Origin: Gammaproteobacteria bacterium
GTDB lineage: Bacteria > Pseudomonadota > Gammaproteobacteria > Steroidobacterales > Steroidobacteraceae
DNA: 40,312 nucleotides
Assembly: GCA_028870635.1 (NCBI GenBank)
Contig: JAGWPE010000251.1
Location: forward strand, 1 to 40,312
Direction: 5' to 3'
Shown here: piece after piece, positions 14,034 through 28,727 of the stretch
Numbering within the stretch: the first letter of the stretch is position 1
Layout of the letters: each line of letters begins with the position of its first letter
Made by a program: the position numbers and the translations under genes
Notes under the pieces: model-generated
Seen by the model: only the letters and a program-made list of their open reading frames with translations
Databases searched by the model: none
Told to the model about the DNA's origin: nothing

Positions 14034-14162
14034 TCAGGCAACGTCCTGGCGCTGTCCCGTCTTCTGCTGCTCGCGCATCTCGTACCACATGGCATTGAGC
14101 ACGCCGAAGGCGAGCGCGAGTCCGGTGCCGAGGACCCAACTGAAGTACCACATGGTGCTCAT
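14034..14162 (-). CDS. cydX: Cytochrome bd oxidase small subunit CydX (42 aa)
   Basis: MSTMWYFSWVLGTGLALAFGVLNAMWYEMREQQ; immediately downstream of cydB. The ORF track shows it only inside a longer ORF in the same frame. Confidence 0.9.
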   Translation of the reverse strand: MSTMWYFSWVLGTGLALAFGVLNAMWYEMREQQKTGQRQDVA

Positions 14163-14176
14163 CCCCTTCGCAAGGA

Positions 14177-15313
14177 TCAGTAGAAACCCGCATGCCGCCG
14201 GATCTCCTCCAGCGTCACACGACCCTTCAATACCCGGAAAACCCAGACCGTGTAGCCGAGCACGATGGGGAGGAAGACCGCCACCGCGACCAGCATGATC
14301 GAGAGCGTGCGGGCGCTGCTCGAGGCATCCCAGATCGTCAGCCCCTGGGAGGGCTCCGTCGAGGAGGGCATCAGGAACGGGAACAAGCCGATGCCCGCGG
14401 TCAGGATGACACCTGCCTGAGTAAGGCAGCTCGTGATGAATGCGGCGCCGTGGCGGCGGGCACCGACCAGATTCCACGTGAGCAGCGCCGCCCCGACGGC
14501 CAGCAGCGGCGCGAGCCAGAGGATGGGATGCTGCCGGTAGTGATCGAGCCAGCCGCCGGGCAACAGGACGACGAGCTTGTGCAGGGGATCCGACGGACCG
14601 TCCGGATTCGCCCCCGAGACGATCCGCTGCCCCTCGAGCACGCGGGCCACCCACAGGCCCGCGGTGAGGAAGCTCGAGAGAAAAATCGCCACCGCCGCCC
14701 TGCCGACCGCGGCGGCCCGCGAGGCCATGGGCTCGCCCACTTTCAACGCCGCGTACGCCGCACCGTGCGCCACCAGCATCGACAGGCTCACTACCCCGGC
14801 AAGCAGCGCGAAGGGCCGCAGAAGTCCGAAGAATCCGCCGGTGAACACCGGCCGCGCGAGCGCATCGAAGTGGAACGGGAGTCCGAGGAAGAGATTCCCC
14901 ATGGCGACGCCGAAGAGCAGCGCCGGCACCGCGCCGCCGACGAACAGCATCCAGTCCCATGCCTCCCGCCAGCGCCGATCGGCGAGCCGGTTGCGGAACG
15001 TGAAGCCCACGGGACGCAGAATGAGGGATACCAACAGCAGCAGCATCGCCAGATAGAGCCCGGAGAACGACGCCGCATAGAGCAGCGGCCAGGCGGCGAA
15101 TACCGCCCCGCCGGCGAGAATGAACCAGACCTGGTTCCCGTCCCAGACGGGCTCGATCGAGCCGAGCAGCGCCCTGCGCTCCTCATCCGTTCGCCCGATG
15201 AAGCGGAAGATCGCGCCGACTCCGAGATCGAAGCCGTCCATCACCGCGAATCCCACGAGGAGCGTGCCGAGGATCAGCCACCAGATGAAGCGCAAGGTTG
15301 CATAATCGAGCAT
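14177..15313 (-). CDS. cydB: Cytochrome bd ubiquinol oxidase subunit II
   Basis: WWLILGTLLVGFAVMDGFDLGVGAIFRFIGRTDEERRALLGSIEPVWDGNQVWFILAGGAVFAAWP. Confidence 0.96.
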   Translation of the reverse strand: MLDYATLRFIWWLILGTLLVGFAVMDGFDLGVGAIFRFIGRTDEERRALLGSIEPVWDGNQVWFILAGGAVFAAWPLLYAASFSGLYLAMLLLLVSLILRPVGFTFRNRLADRRWREAWDWMLFVGGAVPALLFGVAMGNLFLGLPFHFDALARPVFTGGFFGLLRPFALLAGVVSLSMLVAHGAAYAALKVGEPMASRAAAVGRAAVAIFLSSFLTAGLWVARVLEGQRIVSGANPDGPSDPLHKLVVLLPGGWLDHYRQHPILWLAPLLAVGAALLTWNLVGARRHGAAFITSCLTQAGVILTAGIGLFPFLMPSSTEPSQGLTIWDASSSARTLSIMLVAVAVFLPIVLGYTVWVFRVLKGRVTLEEIRRHAGFY

Positions 15314-15317
15314 GGTT

Positions 15318-16946
15318 TCAGTCCTCGAGAGGCGGCTCGCCCGCTCGCCCGGCCGGCGGCGTCGTCGCGGCGGCCGGCCCGACCAGCGCTGCGGCAGGGC
15401 TCACCTCCAGGAGCGGCGGCCAGTAGCCGAGCCCGTCCGGGCCGCGCCGGATGGTGCGCACCATCAGGTAGACATCCACCACAGCCAGTGCCGAATAGAA
15501 GATGAGGAAGCCGGCGAGCGACAGCGCGATGTTGGACGCCGGCGTCACCGACACTCCGAGAAACGTCGGCAGCACCCCGTCGATCGACCAGGGCTGGCGG
15601 CCGTACTCCGCCACTACCCACCCGAGCTCCGCGGCGATCCAGGGCAGCGGCAGGCTGGCGACCGCGATCCTCAGGAACCGCCGGCTGCGCTCGAGACGAT
15701 GGCGCGTTGCCAGATAGAAGCCCGTTGCGAAGAGCGCGATGAGGAAGAAACCGAGCGCCACCATGATGCGGAAGCACCAGAAGAGCACCGGGACATCGGG
15801 CACGGTCGACCAGGCAGCCGCGTCGATCTGAGCGGAGGTCGCGGCGGCCGGATTGGCCGTATAGCGCAACAGCAGCAGTCCGTAACCCAGATCCGACTGA
15901 TGCTGCGCGAGCAGCGCCTTGGCGGCCGCATCCTGCGGATCGGCGCGCAGCCGCTCGAGCGCGGAATGGGCGATGACACCGCTCACGATGCGCGCGCGCG
16001 CGCGGGCGACCAGGTCCTCGATCCCCAGCACCGGCTCGTCCGTCGAGCGCGTGGCGATCAGCCCGAGCGCCCAGGGCACCATGATGGCTGCATGAGTAGT
16101 GCGATTTCTCACGTCAGGGAAGCCGAAGGCCGTGAATGCTGCCGGCGGGGGCTCCGTGCGCCACTCCGCTTCGATCGCCGCCACCTTCATCTTCTGGTTC
16201 TCGCTCGCGAGATAACCGGACTCATCGCCCAACACCACGACCGAGAGCGCGCAGGCGAGCCCGAAGCTCGCCGCCACGGCCATCGAACGCTTCGCGACCT
16301 CGACGTTGCGGCCGCGCAGCAGATACCAGGCGCTGATTGCGAGCACGAACACCGAGCCCACCACGTATCCGGCCGCCACGGTGTGCACGAATTTCGCCTG
16401 GGCGACGGGATTGAGGATGACCGTGGCGAACGAGGACAGCTCCATGCGCATGGTCTGGTAATTGAAGTGCGCACCGACCGGATTCTGCATCCAGCCGTTC
16501 GCGATGAGGATCCAGAGCGCCGAGAGGCTCGAGCCGAGCGCGGTGAGCGCCGTGACCACGAGGTGCCCCACCTTGGAAAGCCGGTCCCAGCCGAAGAAGA
16601 AGAGCCCGACGAAGGTCGACTCCAGGAAGAAGGCCATCAGGCCCTCGATCGCCAGCGGCGCGCCGAATATGTCGCCGACGTAATGCGAGTAGTAAGCCCA
16701 GTTGGTCCCGAACTGGAATTCCATCGTGATGCCCGTGGCCACGCCCATCGCGAAGTTGATGCCGAACAGCGTCCCCCAGAAGCGGGTCATGTGCTTCCAG
16801 ATCTCCCGGCCGGTCATGACGTACACCGACTCCATGATCACCAGGATCATGGAGAGGCCGATCGTCAGCGGGACGAAGAGAAAGTGATAGAGCGCCGTCA
16901 GCGCGAATTGCAGACGCGAAAGATCGACGACCGTGAGATCAGCCAC
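15318..16946 (-). CDS. cydA: Cytochrome bd ubiquinol oxidase subunit I
   Basis: LSRLQFALTALYHFLFVPLTIGLS, WGTLFGINFAMGVATGITMEFQFGTNWAYYSHYVGDIFGAPLAIEGLMAFFLESTFVG, GWVVAEYGRQPW. Confidence 0.97.
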   Translation of the reverse strand: MADLTVVDLSRLQFALTALYHFLFVPLTIGLSMILVIMESVYVMTGREIWKHMTRFWGTLFGINFAMGVATGITMEFQFGTNWAYYSHYVGDIFGAPLAIEGLMAFFLESTFVGLFFFGWDRLSKVGHLVVTALTALGSSLSALWILIANGWMQNPVGAHFNYQTMRMELSSFATVILNPVAQAKFVHTVAAGYVVGSVFVLAISAWYLLRGRNVEVAKRSMAVAASFGLACALSVVVLGDESGYLASENQKMKVAAIEAEWRTEPPPAAFTAFGFPDVRNRTTHAAIMVPWALGLIATRSTDEPVLGIEDLVARARARIVSGVIAHSALERLRADPQDAAAKALLAQHQSDLGYGLLLLRYTANPAAATSAQIDAAAWSTVPDVPVLFWCFRIMVALGFFLIALFATGFYLATRHRLERSRRFLRIAVASLPLPWIAAELGWVVAEYGRQPWSIDGVLPTFLGVSVTPASNIALSLAGFLIFYSALAVVDVYLMVRTIRRGPDGLGYWPPLLEVSPAAALVGPAAATTPPAGRAGEPPLED

Positions 16947-17181
16947 GGGTCATCTCCTTCATGGAAGCTGCCGGCACGGATCGCGACGATGCGGGCGGCT
17001 GCACGATCCCGAGCTGGCGGCTCACGGAATTTCCGTCCGGAGGCGCCCGGTCGGCCGCGGAGAAGAACAACAGCCACAGCAGCGTCAGCGCCGCGAGCTT
17101 CAGGAGAAAGATCCAGAGGAGCTCCGCGCGCATGCGCCGCCGCCAGTCCCGGCGGTCACCGGCAAGGCTCGCGATCTTCAT
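16939..17181 (-). CDS. cydP: CydP-like small single-TM protein preceding cydA
   Basis: 80 aa; RRRMRAELLWIFLLKLAALTLLWLLFFS; overlaps the cydA start; matches what I recall of the CydP small subunit. Confidence 0.7.
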   Translation of the reverse strand: MKIASLAGDRRDWRRRMRAELLWIFLLKLAALTLLWLLFFSAADRAPPDGNSVSRQLGIVQPPASSRSVPAASMKEMTRG

Positions 17182-17249: not shown

Positions 17250-18038
17250 CTACGCGAAGTGGCCGAGCCCCCTGGCAATCACGTAGAGTCCCACGACCGC
17301 GACGACCATACTGAAGGTGACCGCCAACATGCGCTTGCGCTCCGCAAGCGCCTTCGCTGCCTCGATCCCCGCGTATCCGCCCGCGAGCCCGCCGACGATG
17401 AACAGTCCGGCGACACGCCATTCGACCAGTCCGGATGCCGCGTAACTCACCGCCGTCGTCGCCCCGAATGTGGCAACCGACACGAGCGAGGAGCCGATCG
17501 CATTCAGCAGCGGCATTGCGGTCGCCGATATCAGCCCCGGCACGATGAGAAAGCCGCCGCCGATCCCGAAGAACCCCGAGAGCGCACCTGCCGCCAGGCC
17601 GGTCCCGGCCAGTGGCGGCAGCAGGCGCGCAGCGGATACCCGCGTCAGCCGCACGTCAGGATCGTGTCCGTCCCGCCGGGGCCGCAGCATCAGAGCCGCA
17701 ACGGCGATCATCAGCACGCCGAATGCCGCGAGCAACGCCTGGCCATCGACCCGCTTGCCGATCTGCGCCCCGATGGCGGCCCCCGCCACTCCTGAGACCG
17801 CAAACACGAGCGCACACGGCCACTTCACCGTGCGCGCGCGCGCGTGCCCTCCAAGGTTGGCGAGCGCGCTCGCCGCCACTGCGACCGCGCTCGTGCCGAT
17901 GGCGGCATGAGGCGGTAGACCCACGACATACGCCATCAGCGGCACGGCCAGGATGGAGCCGCCGCCGCCGATGAGTCCGAGCGACAAACCCACCAGACTC
18001 CCGCAGAGAATGGAGAGGACGGCAGTCGCGGCGGTCAT
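17250..18038 (-). CDS. TSUP (TauE/SafE) family permease
   Basis: GLSLGLIGGGGSILAVPLMAYVVGLPPHAAIGTSAVAVAASA; GFFGIGGGFLIVPGL. Confidence 0.92.
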   Translation of the reverse strand: MTAATAVLSILCGSLVGLSLGLIGGGGSILAVPLMAYVVGLPPHAAIGTSAVAVAASALANLGGHARARTVKWPCALVFAVSGVAGAAIGAQIGKRVDGQALLAAFGVLMIAVAALMLRPRRDGHDPDVRLTRVSAARLLPPLAGTGLAAGALSGFFGIGGGFLIVPGLISATAMPLLNAIGSSLVSVATFGATTAVSYAASGLVEWRVAGLFIVGGLAGGYAGIEAAKALAERKRMLAVTFSMVVAVVGLYVIARGLGHFA

Positions 18039-18062
18039 CGCTTCTCCCGCCGAAATGACGAC

Positions 18063-18449
18063 TCAGAGATGGCGCTGATGCGGGCGGCCGGTACCGGCAT
18101 CCAGGCTGGTGAGCGGCAGTCCCGCCTCCTTCCATGCCTTGAGGCCCCCCGCGAGGTGGGACGCTTCGTGGCTGCCGCCATCGAGCACCCGCTGTGCAGC
18201 CATGGCCGAGCGCCGGCCGGTGCCGCACTGGAATATGATCCGCTTGGAGCCGTCGAGCGGCAGGCTCGCGGGGTCGAATCCCGAGAGCGGGAAGAGCAGC
18301 GCCCCGGGGATGCGCTCGGCCTCGAACTCCGGGGGCTCGCGCACATCGATCAGCACGGCCTGGTGGCTGCGAAGCAACGCGTGCACCTGCGCGGCGTCGA
18401 GCTCGTGCAGCACACCCCGGTTACGATGAAGGTGATGACTCTCGGACAT
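18063..18449 (-). CDS. Single-domain rhodanese (sulfurtransferase)
   Basis: VLIDVREPPEFEAERIPGALLFPLSGF and active-site loop FQCGTGRRSAMAA; start MSESHHLH at 18449. Confidence 0.92.
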   Translation of the reverse strand: MSESHHLHRNRGVLHELDAAQVHALLRSHQAVLIDVREPPEFEAERIPGALLFPLSGFDPASLPLDGSKRIIFQCGTGRRSAMAAQRVLDGGSHEASHLAGGLKAWKEAGLPLTSLDAGTGRPHQRHL

Positions 18450-18472
18450 GCTCTTCTCCTCTCTCACCAAAG

Positions 18473-18530
18473 CTCTGATATTCACCATCTCTGATATTCA
18501 CCATCGCGAATATCAGCAGTCTCTAATATT
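18473..18530. promoter_or_regulatory. Putative BigR/SqrR-type operator array between tolC and rhodanese
   Basis: Perfect 16-bp tandem repeat CTCTGATATTCACCAT (18473-18488, 18489-18504); TGATATTC-N8-GAATATCA (18492-18515); AATATCAG-N6-CTAATATT (18509-18530). Confidence 0.65.
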
Positions 18531-18571
18531 ATGGCAAGCACGGAGGTCATGAGCCGTGCGGTTGCGGCGGC

Positions 18572-19885
18572 TCAGAGCGCTCCGACCGCGTACTCGAGCT
18601 CCATGCCCGCCAGCGACTCATCGAGCATGGCATTGTCGTGGTCATTGGTCGCCTGAACCTGCAGGGTCACGGCATCGAGGACCTGGGTGTTGGAGGCGAG
18701 ACCCGCGCCGTAGAGCTCGCGCGAGATGCGCAGGTTCTCCGCCGCCTGCGCAGTGGCTTCGCGCGAAGCAGCTACTCGGGCGTGCGCCGCCCTGACCGCG
18801 AGCCACGCCTGGCGTACCTGAAGCTCGACCTGCGATCTCTGATCCGCGAGGCGCCGGCCGGCCGCGCGGCTCTCGCTGCGCAGAGAATCGGCCTCATCGC
18901 GAGCCACCCCGCCGTCGAAGAGGCGCCAGGTGAAGCCGACGCCAACCATCGAGAAGTTCTGCCGATCGAGGATCTGGTTGTCGAAATGCGTGTAGCCGCC
19001 CGTCAAGGCGACTTGCGGCAGCCGGCTGCCCGTGGCCGCGCGGGCCTGCGCTGCGAGCGCACTGGATTGCGCGGCGAGTCCTTTGAGCTCCCCGCGCGCG
19101 GCGAGCGCTCGTCTCACGAGGGAGCCCACAGCCTCCGTGGCCAGCGCCGGGGCGATGTCCAGCCGACCCTCGAGGCGAGGCGCCCGCTCGAGCGGCTCGC
19201 CGAGCAGTCGGTTGTAGTCCGCGAGTGCGATTTGCACGCCGTTCGCGGCGCTGACCTGGCGCTCCTCGGCGACGGCAAGAGCCACCTGGGCAGCCAGCAA
19301 ATCGCTCTTGGCCACCAGCTGCCGCTGGAACATGCTTTTGGCATCACTCACATGCGCTCTCAGGCTCGCGACGCTGGAATCGGCCACTGCGAGCTCGCTG
19401 CGCGCCCGCAGCACGCCCACGTAGGCTTCGGCGACGGCCAGCTTCAGGTCCGACAGGGCGGCCTGCTCCTGTGCCGAGACTCCAGTCAGTGACTCTCGCG
19501 CGGCGCGGATGCCGGCAGTGATACGCCCTCCTGCGTAGAGAGGCACCTTCACCTGCACGGTGCCGCTGACGTACTGATCGTCCTTGAAGATCGGCCCCGA
19601 GCGGAATGTGAAGCCCGGCGTCACGACATCGAGTTGCGGAGCGGCATTCAGGCGCGTGTAACCGACGCTGGTGTCGACTGTCGGCCAGCGGCCGCCGCGC
19701 GCCGCCCGCTCCTTCGCTCGCGCGCCTTCCACCTCGTCGTGGGCCGCGGCCAGCGCCTGGTTGTTCGCGATGGCCATCTGCCACGCCTGCCCGAGTGTCT
19801 CCGCCGCAGCGCCACGTGTCACGAGCGCCGCGGCCGCCAGGGCCAGCAACGGAACTCTCCAGCGCGATGGCAGCGTCGCTCTCAT
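18572..19885 (-). CDS. TolC-family outer membrane efflux protein
   Basis: ETLGQAWQMAIANNQALAAAHDEVEGARAKERAARGGRWPTVDTSVGYTRLN; start MRATLPSRW at 19885, overlapping the upstream stop (ATGA). Confidence 0.9.
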   Translation of the reverse strand: MRATLPSRWRVPLLALAAAALVTRGAAAETLGQAWQMAIANNQALAAAHDEVEGARAKERAARGGRWPTVDTSVGYTRLNAAPQLDVVTPGFTFRSGPIFKDDQYVSGTVQVKVPLYAGGRITAGIRAARESLTGVSAQEQAALSDLKLAVAEAYVGVLRARSELAVADSSVASLRAHVSDAKSMFQRQLVAKSDLLAAQVALAVAEERQVSAANGVQIALADYNRLLGEPLERAPRLEGRLDIAPALATEAVGSLVRRALAARGELKGLAAQSSALAAQARAATGSRLPQVALTGGYTHFDNQILDRQNFSMVGVGFTWRLFDGGVARDEADSLRSESRAAGRRLADQRSQVELQVRQAWLAVRAAHARVAASREATAQAAENLRISRELYGAGLASNTQVLDAVTLQVQATNDHDNAMLDESLAGMELEYAVGAL

Positions 19886-21162
19886 CACCCGGTCCGCTTG
19901 AGTGAGGCGATCCCCAGGGCCTTGAGCACATACCTCTCGTACACCGGCGTCACCGAGCCCGTACGGACCTTGCGCAGAAAGTACTTCTCGAAGGCCACCT
20001 TGGCGAGGTGCACCCACTTGCCGACACCGGTCCATGTCACGTTGCGCGGCGGGATCTCCGGCAACGCCACGAATGCGGCACCCGTGTCTCCGAAGTCGGC
20101 CAGGCAGACCGCATTCCACGTCGCCCGCGCGGCCGCGGGGCGACCCTCGAGCTCGGCCGCGATGTTCTCGCTGATCGCCGCCACCATCGACTCGATCATG
20201 TAGCCGGTCTTGGGCGCGCCGGTCGGCACGGGCGTCACTTCCACGGGCGGAATCGCCACGCACACGCCCGCGGAAAAGATGTTGGGGTATTGCTTCGAGC
20301 GCTGATGCTCGTCGATCAGCACGAAGCCGCGGGGATTGCACAGGCCGGGAACGGCCGCCACGGCATCGACGCCCTTGAACGCCGGCAGCACCATGGCATA
20401 GCGGAAGTCCAGATGGTGCTCCTTCCTGGGCTTTCCCTCCTCATCGTGCTCCACGACCGCCATGGAGGTCGGCGCGACACCGGCGATCTTGGCGTTGGTG
20501 ATCCACTTGATGTGGCGCTTGCGCAGCTCCGATTCCATCAGGCCCTTGCTGTCACCGACGCCGCCCAGGCCCATGTGTCCGATGTAAGGCTCGCTGGTCA
20601 CCAGCGTGATCGGCACCCGGTCGCGCAACTTGCGCTTGCGCAGATCGGCATCGACGATCATCGCGAACTCGTACATCGGGCCGAAGCAGCTCGCGCCCTG
20701 AGCGGCGCCGATGACGACGGCTCCGGGCTCGCGCAGGAACTCCTGATACTTCTCCCAGGCCCGTACGGCATGATCCTGGGTACATACCGACTCGGTATGG
20801 CCTTCGGGCCCGAGACCCGGGACCTCCTCGAATGCCAGCTTCGGGCCGGTGGTGATGACCAGGTAGTCGTAATCGACGGTGCGCCCGTCATCCAGCGTGA
20901 GGCGCCGCTGCTGCGCCTCGATCGCCCTCACCGGATGATCGATCCATTCGATGTCCTTCGCCTGCAGCGGATGGTGCAGCAGCACGCGGGTCTGCTCACG
21001 GTCGCGCCAGCCGACAGCCACCCAGGGGTTCGAAGGAGTGAACTCGAAATACGGCGCAGCGCCGATCAGGGTTACCCGATGGGATTTGCCGAGACGCTTG
21101 CGCAGCTCGTAGGCGCAGGGTACCCCGCCCACGCCCGCTCCGATGACGACTATATTTGCCAT
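19885..21162 (-). CDS. sqr: Sulfide:quinone oxidoreductase (type I-like)
   Basis: FAD-binding IVVIGAGVGGVPCAYELRKRLG; three cysteines at SVCTQDHA (C127), GASCFGPMYEF (C159), NAVCLADFGD (C353), in the same sequence contexts as the catalytic Cys of A. ferrooxidans SQR; AIPPVEVTPVPTGAPKTGYMIE and FEKYFLRKVRTG. Confidence 0.9.
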   Translation of the reverse strand: MANIVVIGAGVGGVPCAYELRKRLGKSHRVTLIGAAPYFEFTPSNPWVAVGWRDREQTRVLLHHPLQAKDIEWIDHPVRAIEAQQRRLTLDDGRTVDYDYLVITTGPKLAFEEVPGLGPEGHTESVCTQDHAVRAWEKYQEFLREPGAVVIGAAQGASCFGPMYEFAMIVDADLRKRKLRDRVPITLVTSEPYIGHMGLGGVGDSKGLMESELRKRHIKWITNAKIAGVAPTSMAVVEHDEEGKPRKEHHLDFRYAMVLPAFKGVDAVAAVPGLCNPRGFVLIDEHQRSKQYPNIFSAGVCVAIPPVEVTPVPTGAPKTGYMIESMVAAISENIAAELEGRPAAARATWNAVCLADFGDTGAAFVALPEIPPRNVTWTGVGKWVHLAKVAFEKYFLRKVRTGSVTPVYERYVLKALGIASLKRTG

Positions 21163-21192
21163 GACAGTCTCCGGGAGAGCCTCTCTGCGCCC

Positions 21193-24100
21193 TCACTCAT
21201 GGACCAGCACTCCGGCGGTGCGCTCGGCCCGGGTCTCCTTGCGCTTGAGGTATGCGTAATAGAGGACCGGGATCACGAGCAGCGTGAGCACCGTCGACAC
21301 GAAAATGCCGAAAAGGAGCGAGACGGCGAGCCCGTTGAAGATGGGATCGTCGAGAATGAAGAGCGCCCCGAGCATCGCCGCGGCCGCGGTGAGGGCGATC
21401 GGCTTGGCGCGGATGGCGCCGGCGCGGACCACCGCCTCCTCGAGCGCGAATCCTTCGCGCACCGCCCCGTCGATGAAGTCGACGAGCAGGATCGAGTTGC
21501 GCACGATGATGCCGGCGAGCGCGATCATCCCGATCATCGAGGTCGCGGTGAACTGCGCCCCAAGGAGCGCGTGACCCGGCATCACCCCGATGATGGTGAG
21601 CGGAATCGGCGCCATGATGATGAAAGGCACGAAGTACGAGCCGAACTGGCCGACGATGAGCAGGTAGATCAGTACCAGGCCTACCGAGTACGCCAGGCCC
21701 ATGTCGCGGAAGGTCTCGTACGTGATCTGCCATTCTCCGCCCCACTTGATGGCGAAGCTGTTGGCGCTGGCGGGCGGGCGGATGAAGTACTGACCGACCG
21801 GCGTGCCGCCCGGGGGCGCATGCCGCAGGCGCGAGACGATCTCGAACATGCCGTAGAGCGGACTGTCGAGCCGGCCGGCCATGTCTCCCATCACGTAGGT
21901 CACCGGCAGCAGGTCTTTGTGATAGATCGGGGCATCCCAGACGCCGCGGCGCACGTGCACCAGCTCGGAAATCGGCACGAGCGCGCCGCTCGCCGAGCGC
22001 ACATCGAGATCGAGCAGCCTGTCGATCGACGCCTGATCCGCAGGGGGCAGCTCGAGTCTCACCGGAATCGGGTTGCGCTCGCGGCCGATGTGCGCGTAGG
22101 TGGCATCGAGCCCGGAGAGGCCGAGCGCCAGCGTGCTCGTGATCTGCTCCTGTGAGATCCCGAGCAGCGCCGCCTTCTGCCGGTCGACAGCGACGATGAG
22201 CCGCGGCGACGGCGCTGTCAGGCTGTCGTCCACATCGATGACATCGCGCGTGCTGTCGAAGACCTTGCGGACCTCCCGCGCGAGGCGCTCCTGCCCGGCG
22301 TACTGCGGGCCGTAGATCTCCGCGACGATCGGCGCCTGGACAGGCGGGCCCGGCGGCACCTCGACCACCTGCAGGGAAGCGTGATAGCGCCGGGCGATGG
22401 CGGCGAGCGCCGGCCGGACCGCGAGCGCGATCGCATGGCTCTCGCGGCGGCGCTTCTCCTTCGGCACGAGCTGCACCTCGATCTCGCCGAGCTCCGGGCT
22501 CTCGCGCAGGTAATACTGCCGCACGAGTCCGTTGAAGTTGGCCGGCGCGGCGGTGCCCGCGTACACCTCGTAGTCGCTGACCTCCGGCACCCGCGCGATG
22601 ACCTGCGAGAGGTCATCGAGCAGCCGCGCGGTCGTCTCCACCGTGCTGCCGGCGGGCAGGTTCGCCACCACCTCGAATTCCGACTTGTTGTCGAAGGGCA
22701 GCATCTTCAGCACCACCACCCTCGCCACGACGAGCCCCACGGCCACGAGGATCGCAGCGAGGATTCCCCAGTAGAGACGATGGCGGCGGATGCGGCCCTT
22801 CGCTCCGGCAAGATATGGGCTCACGAGGCGTTGAAACAGGGGCAGCAGCGGTGGCGCCTTGCTCTGCTCCACCGCGGGAACGTGCGTCTCACCCAGGAGC
22901 TTTCTGCACAGCCAGGGCGTGAACATGAGCGCCACGCCGAGCGAGATCAGCATTCCGGTGCTGGCGTTGATCGGTATGGGACTCATGTAGGGTCCCATCA
23001 GACCGCTCACGAACGCCATCGGCAAGAGCGCCGCGATCACGGTGAATGTGGCGAGGATCGTCGGCCCGCCGACCTCGTCGACCGCCCGCGGAATGAGCTC
23101 GCTCAGCGTTCCTCCGCCCATCTGCGCGTGGCGATGGACGTTCTCGACGACGACGATCGCATCGTCCACCAGGATTCCGATGGAGAAGATCAGCGCAAAC
23201 AGCGACACACGGTTTATGGTGAAGCCCCACGCCCAGGAGGCGAACAGGGTTGCCGCGAGAGTCACGGTCACCGCGGTGCCGACCACCACGGCCTCCCTTC
23301 TTCCCATCGTAAGGAGGACGAGAAGCACGACGGAGACGGTTGCGAAAACCAGCTTCTCGATGAGCTTCATCGCCTTCTGGTCCGCCGTGACTCCGTAGTT
23401 GCGGGTGACGGTGACGTGCACGCCGGCGGGAATGTAAGTGCCGCGCAGCTCCTCGATCCGCCGGGTGACCTGGCGCGCCACCGCGATGGCATTGGTTCCC
23501 GGCTTCTTCGCGATCGCGATGGTGACCGCCGGAGCGTGCGCGACCGGCGGCAGGCCGACCGCCGCCGCGCCCGCGCCGCTGCCGAGCCAGACGTACGAGG
23601 CCGGAGGATCCGGTTGCAGCGACACGTCCGCGACGTCGGACAGGTAGACGGGCCTGCCCTCGTGGACGCCCACGACCAGATTCGCCACCTCGTCGCGGCC
23701 GGCGAGGAAGGTGCCCGCCTTCACCGGAACCACCTCGTCATTGCCGATCAGCGAGCCCGCCTGGCGCACGAAGTTGGCGGCCTCGAGCGAGCGGGAGAGC
23801 CCGAGGACGGTCAGTCCGTAGCCGGCGAGCTTCTGCGGATCGAGCTGCACGCGCACGATGCTCTCGGGTGCGCCGATGGTGTAGACCTTGCGCGTATCCG
23901 GGACACGCTTGAGCTCCGTCTCGATCGACCGAGCCACCTGTCCGAGCTGGTACGAGCCGCGCGCCGGATCGCTGGTCCACAGGGTCAGGGTGACGATCGG
24001 TACATCGTCGATCCCCATGGGCCGGATGAGCGGCGGGAGTATGCCGGCGCCCGGCGGCCGCCAGTCCTGGTGAGAATAGATGGCGTTGTAGAGCCGCACG

Positions 24101-24441
24101 ATGGCCTGCGTGTGCGGCTGCCCGACCTCGTATTCCACGGTGAGGACCGCCATACCCGGCCGCGATACCGAGTAGATGTGCTTGATCCCCTCGATCTCCC
24201 CGAGCAGCTGCTCCATGGGCGATGTGACCTGGGCCTCCACCTGGCCGGAAGAAGCGCCGGGAAACGGAATGAAGATGTTGGCGAAGGTGACATTGATGTC
24301 GGGATCTTCCTCCCGGGGCGTGATCGCCAGCGCGAATACGCCCATCGCGAGCGCGGCGATCGCCAGAAGCGGCGTCAGCTGGCTGTGCAGGAAGCGAAGC
24401 GCCAGGCGCCCGCTGAAGCCGAGATTACCGTTACCGCTCAT
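21193..24441 (-). CDS. RND efflux permease (AcrB/HAE-type)
   Basis: 1082 aa; TPREEDPDINVTFANIFIPFPGASSGQVEAQVTSPMEQLLGEIEGIKHIYSVS; ILVDDAIVVVENVHRH; IALAGIIVRNSILLVDFID. Confidence 0.95.
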   Translation of the reverse strand: MSGNGNLGFSGRLALRFLHSQLTPLLAIAALAMGVFALAITPREEDPDINVTFANIFIPFPGASSGQVEAQVTSPMEQLLGEIEGIKHIYSVSRPGMAVLTVEYEVGQPHTQAIVRLYNAIYSHQDWRPPGAGILPPLIRPMGIDDVPIVTLTLWTSDPARGSYQLGQVARSIETELKRVPDTRKVYTIGAPESIVRVQLDPQKLAGYGLTVLGLSRSLEAANFVRQAGSLIGNDEVVPVKAGTFLAGRDEVANLVVGVHEGRPVYLSDVADVSLQPDPPASYVWLGSGAGAAAVGLPPVAHAPAVTIAIAKKPGTNAIAVARQVTRRIEELRGTYIPAGVHVTVTRNYGVTADQKAMKLIEKLVFATVSVVLLVLLTMGRREAVVVGTAVTVTLAATLFASWAWGFTINRVSLFALIFSIGILVDDAIVVVENVHRHAQMGGGTLSELIPRAVDEVGGPTILATFTVIAALLPMAFVSGLMGPYMSPIPINASTGMLISLGVALMFTPWLCRKLLGETHVPAVEQSKAPPLLPLFQRLVSPYLAGAKGRIRRHRLYWGILAAILVAVGLVVARVVVLKMLPFDNKSEFEVVANLPAGSTVETTARLLDDLSQVIARVPEVSDYEVYAGTAAPANFNGLVRQYYLRESPELGEIEVQLVPKEKRRRESHAIALAVRPALAAIARRYHASLQVVEVPPGPPVQAPIVAEIYGPQYAGQERLAREVRKVFDSTRDVIDVDDSLTAPSPRLIVAVDRQKAALLGISQEQITSTLALGLSGLDATYAHIGRERNPIPVRLELPPADQASIDRLLDLDVRSASGALVPISELVHVRRGVWDAPIYHKDLLPVTYVMGDMAGRLDSPLYGMFEIVSRLRHAPPGGTPVGQYFIRPPASANSFAIKWGGEWQITYETFRDMGLAYSVGLVLIYLLIVGQFGSYFVPFIIMAPIPLTIIGVMPGHALLGAQFTATSMIGMIALAGIIVRNSILLVDFIDGAVREGFALEEAVVRAGAIRAKPIALTAAAAMLGALFILDDPIFNGLAVSLLFGIFVSTVLTLLVIPVLYYAYLKRKETRAERTAGVLVHE

Positions 24442-24466
24442 GCAACATCCCTTCGGATGGCGCGGC

Positions 24467-25546
24467 TCATCGTCCGGCGCTCACGCCGGCAGAGGACGCC
24501 TCGAGCCGCTGCATCGCGGCAAGCGGATCCTCCGCAACCCGATCGCCGGCCATGAGGCCTGAGAGCACCTCGACCTGATCCGCGAAGGGGTCACCGAGGC
24601 GCACTTGCTGCAGCGTCGTGCTGCCGTCCGGACGCACGAGATAGACGGCGGTCACCTCACTGCGGCGCACGATCGCCCTCGCCGGCACGAGCAGCCTCGT
24701 CCGCTCGCCGACCACGAAGCCCACCTTCACGAGCATGCCGGGGGAGAGCCCGGGGGTGTTCTCGGGAAGGTCGAGCCACGCGCGGAAAGTGTTCGAGGGA
24801 GTCGAGGCAACCGGAAAGACCGTCACCTGCGCCGCTTCGATCCGGCGGCCGTCGAAGTAGACCGCGCCTTTGAGGATCCTGCGAACCGTATCGACGATGG
24901 ATTGCGGGATGTCGGCCACCACGCGCAGATGCTGCAGTGATACACCGCTCATCAGCGGCGTGCCCGGGACTACCGTCTCCCCGCGCTGTACGAGCCGCTG
25001 GGTCACCACTCCTGCGTAAGGAGCGCGAATCTCCGTGTAACCGACACCCTGCCTCGCGCTGAGGACCGCGGCGCGCGCCGCCGCCAGCCGCGCCGCTGCC
25101 GCGTCCCGATCGGCCGCGGCCTGGTCGTAGGCCGCCTTCGGGACGACCTGCCGGTCGTACATGTCGCGGATCCGTTGGTAGCGCGTTTCGGCTTCCGAAG
25201 CGCGGGCCTGTGCTTCCCGCAGCGCGGCCTGCGCCGCGGCCAATCCGGCATGCTGCTCGGTCGCGCGCAATCGGATGATCACGGCGCCCGCGGGCACGTA
25301 GTCGCCCACATCGAAGTTGACAGCAGCAACGCGCCCGGATGTCTGGGCGGCCACGGTGGCGTGATTGACCGCCTCCACGACTCCGTCCAAACGCCGCTCG
25401 GCCGGCGTGCTCACCGGCGACACCAAGACCGACACGAGCGGCGGGTGCGCGGGTCGGGCGGTTGGCACGGAGCCGGGCCTGCCGCCGCACGCCGTAAGAA
25501 GCAGCGCCCCGGCGGCACAGACAGAAATGCTCCAGGCCGGTTTCAT
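24467..25546 (-). CDS. RND efflux periplasmic adaptor (lipoprotein)
   Basis: Start MKPAWSISVCAAGALLLTACGG (lipobox); AAQTSGRVAAVNFDVGDYVPAGAVIIRL; adjacent to the RND permease. Confidence 0.92.
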   Translation of the reverse strand: MKPAWSISVCAAGALLLTACGGRPGSVPTARPAHPPLVSVLVSPVSTPAERRLDGVVEAVNHATVAAQTSGRVAAVNFDVGDYVPAGAVIIRLRATEQHAGLAAAQAALREAQARASEAETRYQRIRDMYDRQVVPKAAYDQAAADRDAAAARLAAARAAVLSARQGVGYTEIRAPYAGVVTQRLVQRGETVVPGTPLMSGVSLQHLRVVADIPQSIVDTVRRILKGAVYFDGRRIEAAQVTVFPVASTPSNTFRAWLDLPENTPGLSPGMLVKVGFVVGERTRLLVPARAIVRRSEVTAVYLVRPDGSTTLQQVRLGDPFADQVEVLSGLMAGDRVAEDPLAAMQRLEASSAGVSAGR

Positions 25547-25640
25547 GAATGAATCGCTCCCGGGACGGTGCCCGCCAGTGGCAGTTTCGGAACTTCGGCG
25601 CGGCCGCCGCATCCGTATCTTACGCAACGGGCGCGTCTGC

Positions 25641-25844
25641 TCAGCAGAACGCGGCACCGGCCTTGACGCCCAAGCTCTTCAGGATCCGCGCGAGCGGACA
25701 GAAGCCGGTGAAGGCGGACTGCAGGAGATTCACGCCCACGAAGGCCGTGAGCAGCAGCCACCAGGGGTTGACGAGAGCTCCGAGTGTCAGGCCGAGCAGC
25801 ACGACGGCCCCGGCGAAGGCGAGCACGATACGATCGATGGTCAT
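25641..25844 (-). CDS. DUF2892 / YgaP-like transmembrane protein
   Basis: MTIDRIVLAFAGAVVLLGLTLGALVNPWWLLLTAFVGVNLLQSAFTGFCPLARILKSLG. Confidence 0.9.
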   Translation of the reverse strand: MTIDRIVLAFAGAVVLLGLTLGALVNPWWLLLTAFVGVNLLQSAFTGFCPLARILKSLGVKAGAAFC

Positions 25845-25901
25845 GGGGCTACTCCGCAGCCGGCCGAGGTGCCGGCCGGCATGTCATGGGCGCGATCTTA
25901 T

Positions 25902-25917
25902 ATTAGTATTTTCTAAT
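25902..25917. promoter_or_regulatory. Putative ArsR(BigR/SqrR)-type operator in the divergent promoter
   Basis: ATTAG-TATTTT-CTAAT inverted repeat in an unusually AT-rich stretch between DUF2892 (-) and arsR (+). Confidence 0.65.
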
Positions 25918-25957
25918 TTAGCAATAGGCGATTATACTGACCGCACCAGACCCAGCC

Positions 25958-26353
25958 ATGGCGCAGGAGCCCGCCTCGATGACGCGCGCACCCGAGACCG
26001 GCATTTCACCCGGCGCGCTCACGCGCGCGGCCCGGGAGCTGTCCCCGCATGCCGCGGAAGCGGCAAGCCTCCTGCGGGCGCTCGCCAATGAGCAGCGGCT
26101 GATGATCCTCTGCAACCTCGTGCCCGGCCCGCTCACGGTGGGCGAGCTCAACGGGCGTGTGCCCTTGAGCCAATCGGCCCTCTCGCAGCACCTCGCGGTA
26201 CTGCGCGATTCGGGAATCGTGCAGGCGCAGCGCCGGGCGCAGAGCGTGCACTACTCGCTGCCGCCGGGGCTGGTCACGCGGCTCCTCGGTGTGCTGCACG
26301 AGGAGTACTGCAATGCGCCACGCTCGAGCACGCGGCCGCGGCGATCCTCCTGA
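25958..26353 (+). CDS. ArsR-family regulator, BigR/SqrR/YgaV-like persulfide sensor
   Basis: LLRALANEQRLMILCNLVPGPLTVGELNGRVPLSQSALSQHLAVLRDSGIVQAQRRAQSVHYSL; C52 and C118 (spacing 66) positioned as in BigR (42/108) and SqrR (41/107). Confidence 0.88.
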   Translation: MAQEPASMTRAPETGISPGALTRAARELSPHAAEAASLLRALANEQRLMILCNLVPGPLTVGELNGRVPLSQSALSQHLAVLRDSGIVQAQRRAQSVHYSLPPGLVTRLLGVLHEEYCNAPRSSTRPRRSS

Positions 26354-26366
26354 CTGCCGCCGTCCC

Positions 26367-28727
26367 CTATTGCATCTGCAGCGACCGGCTCATCGAGGCC
26401 TTCACCGCATCGAGAATGAATGCCAGCGCGACCGATGCGCCGAGCACGAGCCCGAGGAGCACGGCGGGCACCGCAGCCATGAGGAGGCCTTGCGTGGCGA
26501 GCACGGTGATGATGAGCACGTCGGCCACGGAAGAGACGAGAATCCAGCCGCTCGGTCGCGAGCTCCACAGCCTGCGGCGGTCGCGCACCACGTAGAAGGT
26601 GGCCTGGCCGACGAAGACCAGCGTCACCGCGGCCAGCGTCCGAAGCTCCGGTCGCGGGAGGCCGAGCCGGAAGTAACCTACCGCCACCACGGCCGTGCAA
26701 AAGGTAACGTTGCAGAGCGCCAGCACGACGCCGAGGAGGGTCACGTTGTTGACATGCCATGCATTCGGACGCCCCGACGGGCGTACATTGTCCGTCGTCG
26801 CTGACATTGCGAGAAAATCGCCGGTGATCATGAGTATTGCCATCAGACGCGGCGTGAGTACCGCATGCCCCGTCATGGCGAGCCCCGTGACGAGCAGGAG
26901 CATCTGACTCAACTTCTGCGTCAGCGATCGCAGTGTGTAAGTGAGGGTGCGCTGAAAAGCAACGCGGCCCTCGCGCACCGCGCTCACGATGCCGCCGAGC
27001 CCGGGCTCGGTGAGGACGATTCCGGCGGCGGACTTCGCGACATCGGTGGCGGTGGCAACCGCGATTCCCATCTGCGCCTGCCGCAGCGCCGGCGCATCGT
27101 TGGCGCCGTCGCCGCACATGCCGACCGTGTGGCCGCCCTGCTGAAACGCCTTGACGATGTGAAACTTGTCCTCCGGGAACACGCCCGCAAAGACCGCGAA
27201 GTCCTCCGGATGGACGCTCGCCGGCGGCGCTCCGGCCGGACAGACGGGTCCCTCGAGTCCCACTGCCCGGGCAATCACGGCGGCCGTAGCGGGGGCATCT
27301 CCCGTCACCATCACCGTGCGGACCCCGAGCGAGCGAAGCTCTGCGATCAGCCTGGCGGAATCGGCCCGCGGTGGATCGCTCAGGGCAATGAGCCCGGCGA
27401 GCTCCAGGGGCGGTGAGGCTCGGGGAGCCGAGTCGACGCCGCGTGCGCTGACCGCTACCGCGAGCACGCGAAAACCCTGCGCCGCGAGCTCATCTGCGAT
27501 CCCCGGGGCGCGCTCCGGAACGGCGGCGAGCTGAGAGAGCGTGCGGAATGCTCCCTTCACGATACGGATCGCGCCGCCGCCGGGAGCCCGGACGATCGCC
27601 TCCGCCGTCTTGCTCCCCGGATCGAACGGTATGAAGCGCGAGACGGCCATGGCGGTGACGTCATCGTCCGTCCCGGCTCCGCCGGCGCTCCGGGATGCCG
27701 CAGCACGAATGGCCCCATCCACAGGGTCCTGTCCCCCCTCCGAGCTCGCGAGCGCCGCGAGCGCGAGGACCCGCGCCTCGCCATATCCGGGCATCGGGCG
27801 TACGGCGGTGACCTCGAGCGCATTGCGGGTGAGCGTGCCGGTCTTGTCCGAGCAGAGCACATCCAGGGTCGCCGCATCCTCGACTGCGGACAGACGCGTC
27901 GGCAGAATGCCCCGTTCCGCAAGGGAGCGGGCGCCGAGTGCGCTCGCGAGCGTGAAGGTTGCCGGGAGCGCCACCGGGATGGCGGCAAGGATGGCGGTCA
28001 GCGTGAGCGGGATGAGCTCGTGGGTGGGCAGCCCCGAGGCGACCCCATACGCCACCTGCGCGAGCACGATCGCGCCGTTGAACACGGCAAGGTTGCGCAC
28101 GACCCGTAACACAGTCGTCTGCTGCGAGCTCGTTCCATGCGCGGTGCGCACGAGCTCCGCCGTGCGGCCGAATCGCGTGCGCGGTCCGGTCGCAGTGACC
28201 TCCGCCATCGCCTCGCCGCGGCGCACCAGCGCGCCGGCATATATCGCGCGCCCCACCCCACCCTCGACCGGCAACGATTCCCCCGTCAGCATCGACTGAT
28301 CGAGCAGCACCTCGCCCGCGAGCAGACGGGCATCGGCCGGCACGATGCCGCCGAGAGTCAGCTTGATGAGATCGCCCGGAACCAGTTGCTCGGCGGGGAG
28401 TATCATCCAGGCGCCGTCGCGGCGGGCCGACGCGCTCAGCGCCAGACGGGATTTGAGCGCCCGCAGAGTGCTCTGCGCCCTCCCCTCCTGCAGGAAGCCC
28501 AGCGCCGCGTTGAAGAGCAGGAGCACCGCGATGACTGCCGCCTCGACGCGCTCGCCGACGGTGAGCTGCAGCACGATTGCCGCTTCCAGCATCCACGGCA
28601 CCGGCGCCCAGAACTTCTCGAGGAGGCGGCGCCACGGCCGAGCCTCCTCCTCCGGGCTTGCGTTCGCTCCCCACTCACGCAGACGCCTGCGAGCCTCATC
28701 GCTCGTGAGACCCAGGGGCGCACCCAT
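26367..28727 (-). CDS. P-type (type III-like) H+-exporting ATPase
   Basis: SMLTGESLPVE, DVLCSDKTGTLTRN, MCGDGANDAPALRQAQMGIAVATATDVAKSAAGIVL; start MGAPLGLTSDEARRRL at 28727 overlapping the mgtA stop. Confidence 0.88.
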   Translation of the reverse strand: MGAPLGLTSDEARRRLREWGANASPEEEARPWRRLLEKFWAPVPWMLEAAIVLQLTVGERVEAAVIAVLLLFNAALGFLQEGRAQSTLRALKSRLALSASARRDGAWMILPAEQLVPGDLIKLTLGGIVPADARLLAGEVLLDQSMLTGESLPVEGGVGRAIYAGALVRRGEAMAEVTATGPRTRFGRTAELVRTAHGTSSQQTTVLRVVRNLAVFNGAIVLAQVAYGVASGLPTHELIPLTLTAILAAIPVALPATFTLASALGARSLAERGILPTRLSAVEDAATLDVLCSDKTGTLTRNALEVTAVRPMPGYGEARVLALAALASSEGGQDPVDGAIRAAASRSAGGAGTDDDVTAMAVSRFIPFDPGSKTAEAIVRAPGGGAIRIVKGAFRTLSQLAAVPERAPGIADELAAQGFRVLAVAVSARGVDSAPRASPPLELAGLIALSDPPRADSARLIAELRSLGVRTVMVTGDAPATAAVIARAVGLEGPVCPAGAPPASVHPEDFAVFAGVFPEDKFHIVKAFQQGGHTVGMCGDGANDAPALRQAQMGIAVATATDVAKSAAGIVLTEPGLGGIVSAVREGRVAFQRTLTYTLRSLTQKLSQMLLLVTGLAMTGHAVLTPRLMAILMITGDFLAMSATTDNVRPSGRPNAWHVNNVTLLGVVLALCNVTFCTAVVAVGYFRLGLPRPELRTLAAVTLVFVGQATFYVVRDRRRLWSSRPSGWILVSSVADVLIITVLATQGLLMAAVPAVLLGLVLGASVALAFILDAVKASMSRSLQMQ

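Follow-up and report, generated by a model that had tools for sequence, protein, structure and literature searches.

A candidate sulfide-response operon combining sulfide:quinone oxidoreductase, cytochrome bd and an RND-TolC efflux pump in a Steroidobacteraceae bacterium

The stretch of DNA analysed here (the window) comprises 40,312 nucleotides of contig JAGWPE010000251.1 from a gammaproteobacterium of the Steroidobacteraceae (assembly GCA_028870635.1) and carries a run of minus-strand genes next to a divergent arsR gene (Table 1). All genes that an earlier note on this DNA had named, namely those for DUF2892, the RND adaptor, the RND permease, SQR, TolC, rhodanese and TSUP as well as ArsR, were found where it had placed them. 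The junction between SQR and TolC, which it had read as ATGA, is GTGATG; here the TolC start codon, GTG or ATG, overlaps the TGA that terminates SQR. The minus-strand run further extends beyond position 17250 into cydP-cydA-cydB-cydX, which is absent from the earlier note, and the cytochrome bd gene set is complete at the locus with CydA, CydB and a small subunit. Likewise, a tripartite HAE-type pump is complete in one gene run, consisting of the adaptor, a permease with paired aspartates in TM4 and TolC. The order ArsR-DUF2892-MFP-RND-SQR-TolC is conserved across the genus of the window. In congeners, TolC is followed by a gene of about 5 kb for a sortilin/BNR-repeat protein, which looks unrelated.

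Table 1. Positions of genes and predicted regulatory elements in the window.
Feature	Position	Strand	Remarks
cydX small subunit	14034..14183	-	PF08173 1.4e-14
cydB, cytochrome bd subunit II	14177..15313	-	TIGR00203 5.3e-133
cydA, cytochrome bd subunit I	15318..16946	-	PF01654 1.4e-167
cydP, cytochrome oxidase putative small subunit	16939..17181	-	NF045611, 34.1 bits vs cut-off 29.6
TauE/SafE (TSUP) exporter gene	17250..18038	-	PF01925 1.7e-48
Single-domain rhodanese	18063..18488	-	active loop CGTGRR
TolC-type outer membrane channel	18572..19888	-	start overlaps SQR stop (GTGATG)
Type I sulfide:quinone oxidoreductase (SQR)	19885..21162	-	3sz0 match 4.4e-165
RND permease, HAE-like, clade II	21193..24441	-	relay aspartates D426/D427
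RND periplasmic adaptor (MFP)	24467..25546	-	lipoprotein-like start LLLTACGG; TIGR01730 5e-57
DUF2892/YgaP-like transmembrane protein	25641..25844	-	PF11127 4.8e-13
Putative promoter	25897..25924	-	-35 TTGCTA / -10 TATAAG, 16-bp spacer
Putative operator, ATTAG-N6-CTAAT palindrome	25902..25917		between arsR and DUF2892
arsR, ArsR/SmtB regulator of HlyU/SqrR/BigR/YgaV type	25958..26353	+	Cys52 and Cys118

The ArsR protein matches the structures of HlyU (4k2e, 3.9e-23), the 6o8l group (5.1e-18), BigR (3pqj, 7e-17) and YgaV (3cuo, 4.9e-16). The C-N65-C arrangement described earlier was borne out, as the two cysteines are residues 52 and 118, about 65 apart as in helices alpha2 and alpha5 of persulfide-sensing ArsR proteins. 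The protein misses the strict cut-off of the BigR equivalog family (NF040642; 77.6 vs 155 bits) and is, as judged by such profiles, a relative of BigR and not NCBI's BigR. Among 59 ArsR proteins neighbouring RND loci, the first cysteine is missing in 13. The AT-rich palindrome over the target promoter that is expected of a persulfide-sensing ArsR is present, namely as a putative operator lying between and over the -35 and -10 elements of the putative promoter. Its ATTAG-N6-CTAAT motif occurs just once across all 3.5 Mb of the assembly, and 15 loci retain it within a TTGCTA/TATAnT promoter pattern; in the congener G018, the sole other copy is found 54 bp upstream of the start of dsrE in a dsrE-hdrC-hdrB (sHdr) cluster. 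The assignment to the BigR/SqrR type hence holds for a dithiol ArsR with one dedicated putative operator in front of DUF2892-MFP-RND-SQR-TolC. A predicted response of the operon to sulfane sulfur is well supported by these features, and regulation by sulfide appears very probable.

The catalytic cysteines Cys128, Cys160 and Cys356 of the Acidithiobacillus ferrooxidans enzyme all have aligned counterparts in the SQR, within the segments SVCTQDH, GASCFGP and WNAVCLAD, and the alignment to 3sz0 reaches residue 423 and covers the C-terminal membrane region. Its prediction as a true type I sulfide:quinone oxidoreductase is thereby supported. In DUF2892 a Cys-Pro pair is invariant, with the cysteine present in 76/76 sequences. 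The genes cydAB also adjoin 4 of 20 SQRs that have no RND linkage. At the present locus, SQR, a sulfide-tolerant terminal oxidase and efflux are candidates for one joint transcription unit.

Whether the proximity of SQR and the pump carries meaning can be judged from the RND phylogeny, in which the permease falls into a clade (clade II) with a sister clade I of 80 loci. In the 67 clade II loci that remain once the window's genus is left out, DUF2892 is found near the RND gene in 57 (0/80 in the sister clade), ArsR in 34 (2/80) and SQR in 24 (2/80), whereas a paralogue clade B, taken regardless of SQR, gave 0/20. The other 43 non-genus loci, some of them on cut contigs, have no SQR nearby, and two genera of the same family possess an ArsR-regulated MFP-RND-TolC set without SQR. 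Where a genome holds this SQR, it is placed beside the RND gene in 21/27 cases in clade II, as opposed to 2/39 for sister clade I (Fisher test with 21/6 vs 2/40 as input, p ~2e-10). DUF2892, ArsR and SQR recur with the clade II RND in at least six gene orders, with no fewer than six placements of SQR among the other genes. The SQR-RND linkage, without whose conservation the earlier proposal would fall, is conserved and repeatedly assembled; in the course of evolution, pumps of this type have joined sulfide-oxidation genes time and again. One could argue that SQR and RND became neighbours by chance, or that a single accident was passed on vertically and the operon is a patchwork, as within the window's genus all of these genes descend together as one unit. 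However, this explanation is highly improbable in view of the 23 state changes for SQR linkage on the RND tree, the spread of RND-linked SQRs over several lineages (five changes on the SQR tree), the co-location counts and the one operator in the genome, and it was rejected on the first three of these grounds. Since the order is kept in the genus and the parts recur together elsewhere, the gene arrangement is non-random.

The permease itself reaches no named NCBIfam RND permease family (best RND_permease_2, 440.9 vs a cut-off of 1250), and its plasmid relatives are all more distant (<60% identity). A comparison of clade II with clade I for residues indicative of a sulfur substrate yielded no conserved cysteine and only two conservative clade-diagnostic columns. 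Because neither a cysteine nor a residue pattern separates clade II from a clade free of sulfur neighbours, the pump carries no visible specialisation. Its ordinary HAE relay residues and the lack of clade-specific residues are compatible with a pump for general envelope or drug efflux, brought under persulfide control within a broader stress response and with a cargo that is not a sulfur compound. So is the situation in sister clade I, where this pump sits at a locus of housekeeping type that is devoid of sulfur genes. Sulfane sulfur sensors have been tied to multidrug regulators (PMC9495516), and a parallel exists in MexAB-OprM and antibiotic tolerance under a sulfane-sulfur-sensing MexR or YgaV. 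However, SQR, DUF2892 and dioxygenase have repeatedly been recruited beside the clade in many gene orders, which exceeds what shared regulation of a drug pump would need, and we regard this reading as rather unlikely.

Other genes near clade II RNDs encode a Blh/SdoA-type dioxygenase (6 loci), TrxC (7), OsmC (6), an AhpD-like protein (6) and a CsoR-family regulator (5). The TrxC, OsmC and AhpD-like proteins point also to thiol or peroxide stress, and the RND profile scores, which are of the HAE and not of the metal type, favour an organic cargo. As such, the pump might clear another sulfide-linked toxicant, for instance thiol or quinone adducts, polysulfide-damaged membrane lipids or metal-thiol complexes, instead of the SQR product. 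The most specific enzyme of the neighbourhood is SQR, however, and we regard this possibility as improbable.

No Blh/ETHE1 sulfur dioxygenase was found beside the operon genes, from which the earlier note had derived that the pump may export the sulfur instead of its being oxidised. This step is not supported: a persulfide dioxygenase-rhodanese fusion is encoded on another contig of the same assembly, and the six Blh/SdoA-type genes mentioned above lie close to clade II RNDs. As the genome has a persulfide dioxygenase, export is not needed by default. A downstream sHdr route was not found in the window's genome, the assembly of which is 83% complete.

From our point of view, the locus is best read as a sulfide-response operon with the tripartite RND pump as an integral output, an explanation that we hold, as a whole, with a probability of about 0.5. 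ArsR bound to ATTAG-N6-CTAAT would block transcription, as suggested by the position and conservation of the motif; upon exposure to sulfide, increased cellular sulfane sulfur would cause a poly- or disulfide bridge between the two cysteines and hence release of ArsR, by analogy with the characterised HlyU/SqrR/BigR relatives. SQR, with its catalytic residues in place, would convert H2S to sulfane sulfur, as is the function of its family, and deliver the electrons to quinone. The quinol may be re-oxidised by the adjacent cytochrome bd, an oxidase that is sulfide-resistant in known cases, and thiosulfate or sulfite would be dealt with by rhodanese and TauE. MFP-RND-TolC could take up an SQR-linked sulfane-sulfur product (polysulfide, a low-molecular-weight persulfide or hydrophobic sulfur) in the periplasm or at the outer leaflet of the inner membrane and expel it from the cell, in parallel to and not in place of oxidation by the dioxygenase encoded elsewhere. 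A functional tie of the pump to sulfide stress is likely, and a sulfane-sulfur species as its substrate is conceivable at somewhat less than even odds, with export of polysulfide or persulfide being the leading, unproven guess. Tentatively, one could speculate that clade II RNDs are exporters dedicated to sulfane sulfur, which they would collect at the membrane or in the periplasm as SQR-made polysulfide or hydrophobic zero-valent sulfur and discharge beyond the outer membrane.

To our knowledge, it is not understood how sulfane sulfur exits across two membranes, and we know of no identified exporter. If clade II pumps do export it, many Proteobacteria could dispose of sulfide in a third way, next to oxidation and the formation of sulfur globules. 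With sulfide oxidation, a terminal oxidase tolerant of sulfide and efflux brought together in one candidate transcription unit, efflux pumps may be sulfide-inducible. The question of export becomes testable, since the pump clade is delimited, a control clade free of sulfur genes exists, an operator is predicted and some carriers can be cultivated. Loci with a clade II RND and SQR include those of Luteimonas wenzhouensis, Oleiagrimonas citrea, Derxia gummosa and Ideonella aquatica.

The closest RND structure in the PDB, 6vej, is likewise an HAE-type permease of a tripartite pump, with low similarity (249 bits over 1082 aa); it is presumably TriC of P. aeruginosa, for which we know of no sulfur context. 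With the SqrR regulon of Rhodobacter capsulatus the locus shares an SQR gene controlled by a dithiol ArsR, whereas the predicted operator here is ATTAG-N6-CTAAT and SqrR is not known to us to have an RND pump among its core targets. In common with the bigR operon of Xylella and Agrobacterium (BigR-Blh-TauE; PMC5823870) are a dithiol ArsR repressor over the -10 element, sulfide detoxification, a TauE exporter and a sulfur-transferase function, but the present locus lacks the Blh/ETHE1 dioxygenase and possesses, in addition, SQR, cytochrome bd and all components of an RND-TolC pump. The FisR (PDO1-SQR-TauE) and BigR operons of Acinetobacter baumannii also combine SQR with TauE under persulfide control, yet they include the dioxygenase and no RND pump (PMC7315123). 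Our literature search on persulfide or polysulfide export and on SQR with RND revealed no characterised case and no named exporter, and one on a V. cholerae HlyU/VexLM link nothing useful. The novelty of the earlier proposal is nevertheless reduced, as the idea was partly anticipated in 2025 by a paper on Hyphomicrobium sHdrR, which noted RND pumps beside sulfane-sulfur-responsive, SqrR-type ArsR regulators and suggested transport of sulfur compounds (PMC12423496). That survey draws the same context-based inference, namely that the targets of these ArsR proteins include RND pumps in addition to sqr, pdo, rhd and TauE genes; it is centred on the regulator, whereas the present analysis delimits the clade of the pump, sets a control clade against it and contributes evidence from gene order as well as a putative operator.

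The genes from which the earlier note had assembled an RND-TolC efflux operon containing sulfide:quinone oxidoreductase (SQR) are all present at its positions, in the minus-strand order DUF2892-adaptor-RND-SQR-TolC-rhodanese-TauE and with arsR divergent, but the SQR/TolC junction, taken there for an ATGA overlap, is actually GTGATG.

Genes of the SQR-RND-TolC run in the window
Gene	Position	Strand	Transcription order
DUF2892	25641-25844	minus	first
RND adaptor	24467-25546	minus	second
RND permease	21193-24441	minus	third
SQR	19885-21162	minus	fourth
TolC	18572-19888	minus	fifth
rhodanese	18063-18488	minus	sixth
TauE/TSUP	17250-18038	minus	seventh
arsR	25958-26353	divergent from DUF2892 run	

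Beyond TauE/TSUP the minus-strand run extends into cydP, cydA, cydB and cydX, with 68 bases between the TauE stop and the cydP ATG. Since cytochrome bd is a sulfide-tolerant quinol oxidase in many bacteria, SQR and a suitable oxidase stand near each other here. This pairing is recurrent, as cytochrome bd genes also adjoin 4 of 20 SQR genes without RND linkage (L266, L270, L271, L272). Two large minus-strand P-type ATPase genes (26367-31387), one of them for a Mg2+-transporting type (1154 bits to TIGR01524), run up to the arsR 3' end and seem not to belong to the operon.

The window's genus retains ArsR-DUF2892-MFP-RND-SQR-TolC as a block (MFP, the RND periplasmic adaptor), the arrangement whose conservation the earlier note had proposed to check; one congener (G001, locus L039) differs, its genes showing low identities and running ArsR-MFP-RND-DUF2892-TolC-SQR-rhodanese. 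Across most of the genus, a sortilin/BNR-repeat protein of about 1670 aa follows TolC (L024:11894-16915 and nine congeners), a place taken in the window by rhodanese, TauE and cyd.

To get beyond common descent, 276 class-level genomes were searched and 80 named GTDB loci were included, picked among the listed matches for their resemblance to an RND alignment. The RND tree, rooted on a paralogue of 45% identity, comprises two large sister groups, clade I and clade II, the latter with the window's pump, split with moderate support (86-95 on fasttree nodes). Clade I (80 loci among those listed) has a bare MFP-RND pair, often adjoining LysR, AI-2E-transporter-like, PhoH, AhpC/TSA, ACT-domain or dapA-like genes. 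Among the loci listed, DUF2892, ArsR and SQR accompany 69, 46 and 39 of 82 clade-II pumps (57, 34 and 24 of 67 without the window's genus) versus 0, 2 and 2 of 80 in clade I; throughout, the loose threshold lets other ArsR types into the ArsR counts, and absences are undercounted since many contigs are short. Basal family members in Vibrio and Shewanella (L182, L185, L170 and other basal loci) adjoin DUF2892, in Vibrio also an HlyU-like ArsR, which could make the ArsR-DUF2892-RND link an ancestral feature that clade I has lost.

Conservation of the SQR-RND association, set beforehand as a refuting test, holds in clade II: a type I SQR (identity 59% or more) occurs in 27 of the 50 genomes searched and adjoins the RND gene in 21 of these 27, versus 2 of 39 clade-I genomes of the class sample with both genes, the two coming from one family. 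Fisher's test, with counts entered as 21/6 versus 2/40 (nearly the observed), gives p ~2e-10, the true significance being weaker owing to relatedness among genomes. SQR follows the RND, a downstream DUF2892 or TolC at some loci, and at others it precedes DUF2892, stands between MFP and RND or is divergent; its presence requires 23 changes on the RND tree, and when 20 unlinked controls are included in an SQR tree, the RND-linked SQRs fall into several groups (5 changes). The pairing thus arose, or survived reshuffling, several times. No SQR of at least 50% identity was found at 20 paralogue loci sampled regardless of SQR; at an extra one, fetched because SQR is present (L201, G193:C14), a 54%-identical SQR lies about 4 kb from the paralogue-clade RND, possibly a separate recruitment.

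Unsupervised clustering of neighbourhoods yielded further genes near clade-II RNDs, namely a persulfide dioxygenase of Blh/SdoA type (6 loci, at distances of 2-7.5 kb and in some cases on the other strand), TrxC (7), OsmC (6), AhpD-like (6) and, at 5 loci, a regulator of the CsoR family with the cysteine pair C-x23-C. These sulfur or thiol-redox functions are in line with a role in sulfide stress. The CsoR loci (L163, L168, L178, L179, L180) are clade-II RND-DUF2892 loci of Rhodoferax, Hydrogenophaga and Limnohabitans relatives. CstR, of the same family, is a known persulfide sensor with a different cysteine spacing, so that a new sensor subtype is possible.

The SQR closely resembles that of Acidithiobacillus ferrooxidans (E 4e-165) and retains the full set of three catalytic cysteines, and DUF2892 is a YgaP-type membrane domain whose Cys-Pro is shared by all 76 of the 76 copies close to these pumps. 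Of the proposed BigR/SqrR-type regulator, the kinship stands, the closest relatives being HlyU, SqrR, BigR and YgaV and the cysteines lying at Cys52 and Cys118, but the score is well below the NCBI BigR cut-off; we therefore count it, by sequence, as a putative member of the broader set of persulfide sensors. The interval separating arsR from DUF2892 contains a putative operator, the palindrome ATTAG-N6-CTAAT (25902-25917); WTTAGN6CTAAW occurs only once in the entire 3.5-Mb assembly. The window, 11 congeners, two genera of the same family and one distant locus, 15 loci in all, share the half-sites and differ in the six spacer bases. In most of them a TTGCTA...TATAnT-like promoter encloses the palindrome, with one element deviating in L025, L035, L073 and L114. 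Congener G018 has one further, perfect copy (G018:C5:4578-4593; L192, L236), 54 bp upstream of the dsrE start in a dsrE-hdrC-hdrB cluster followed by more sHdr-like genes, an sHdr-type system that oxidises sulfane sulfur in the cytoplasm. This second, independent putative target ties the regulator to sulfane sulfur, suggesting that in G018 a single ArsR could control sHdr sulfur oxidation along with the RND-SQR operon. It is a single case, as the putative operator was not seen upstream of the G029 sHdr genes; the second copy in G030 lies where no sulfur gene is apparent.

The earlier note had proposed possible export of (per/poly)sulfide or a sulfur adduct instead of oxidation, a reading weakened by contig C389 of the same assembly: it encodes a 343-aa metallo-beta-lactamase/rhodanese fusion resembling BpPRF, in which persulfide dioxygenase and rhodanese are fused (174 bits), so that persulfide oxidation is probably available. 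Export by RND-TolC would be an additional route beside it. The permease is HAE-like, matches no named RND family at family cut-off and has 6vej as its closest solved structure, at low similarity. Conserved cysteines are absent from the pump, and almost no alignment columns tell clade-II from clade-I permeases, so it may have the same range of substrates as the bare pump of clade I.

The idea of ArsR proteins of this kind acting on RND pumps has been published as a neighbourhood observation (PMC12423496), and we found no open-access paper in which an RND pump is described as exporting persulfide or polysulfide. New are the definition of the clade-II pump group together with its control clade I, the SQR-RND linkage in reshuffled gene orders, the single putative operator inside the promoter, the sHdr genes as a second putative target and the extension of the gene run into cyd.
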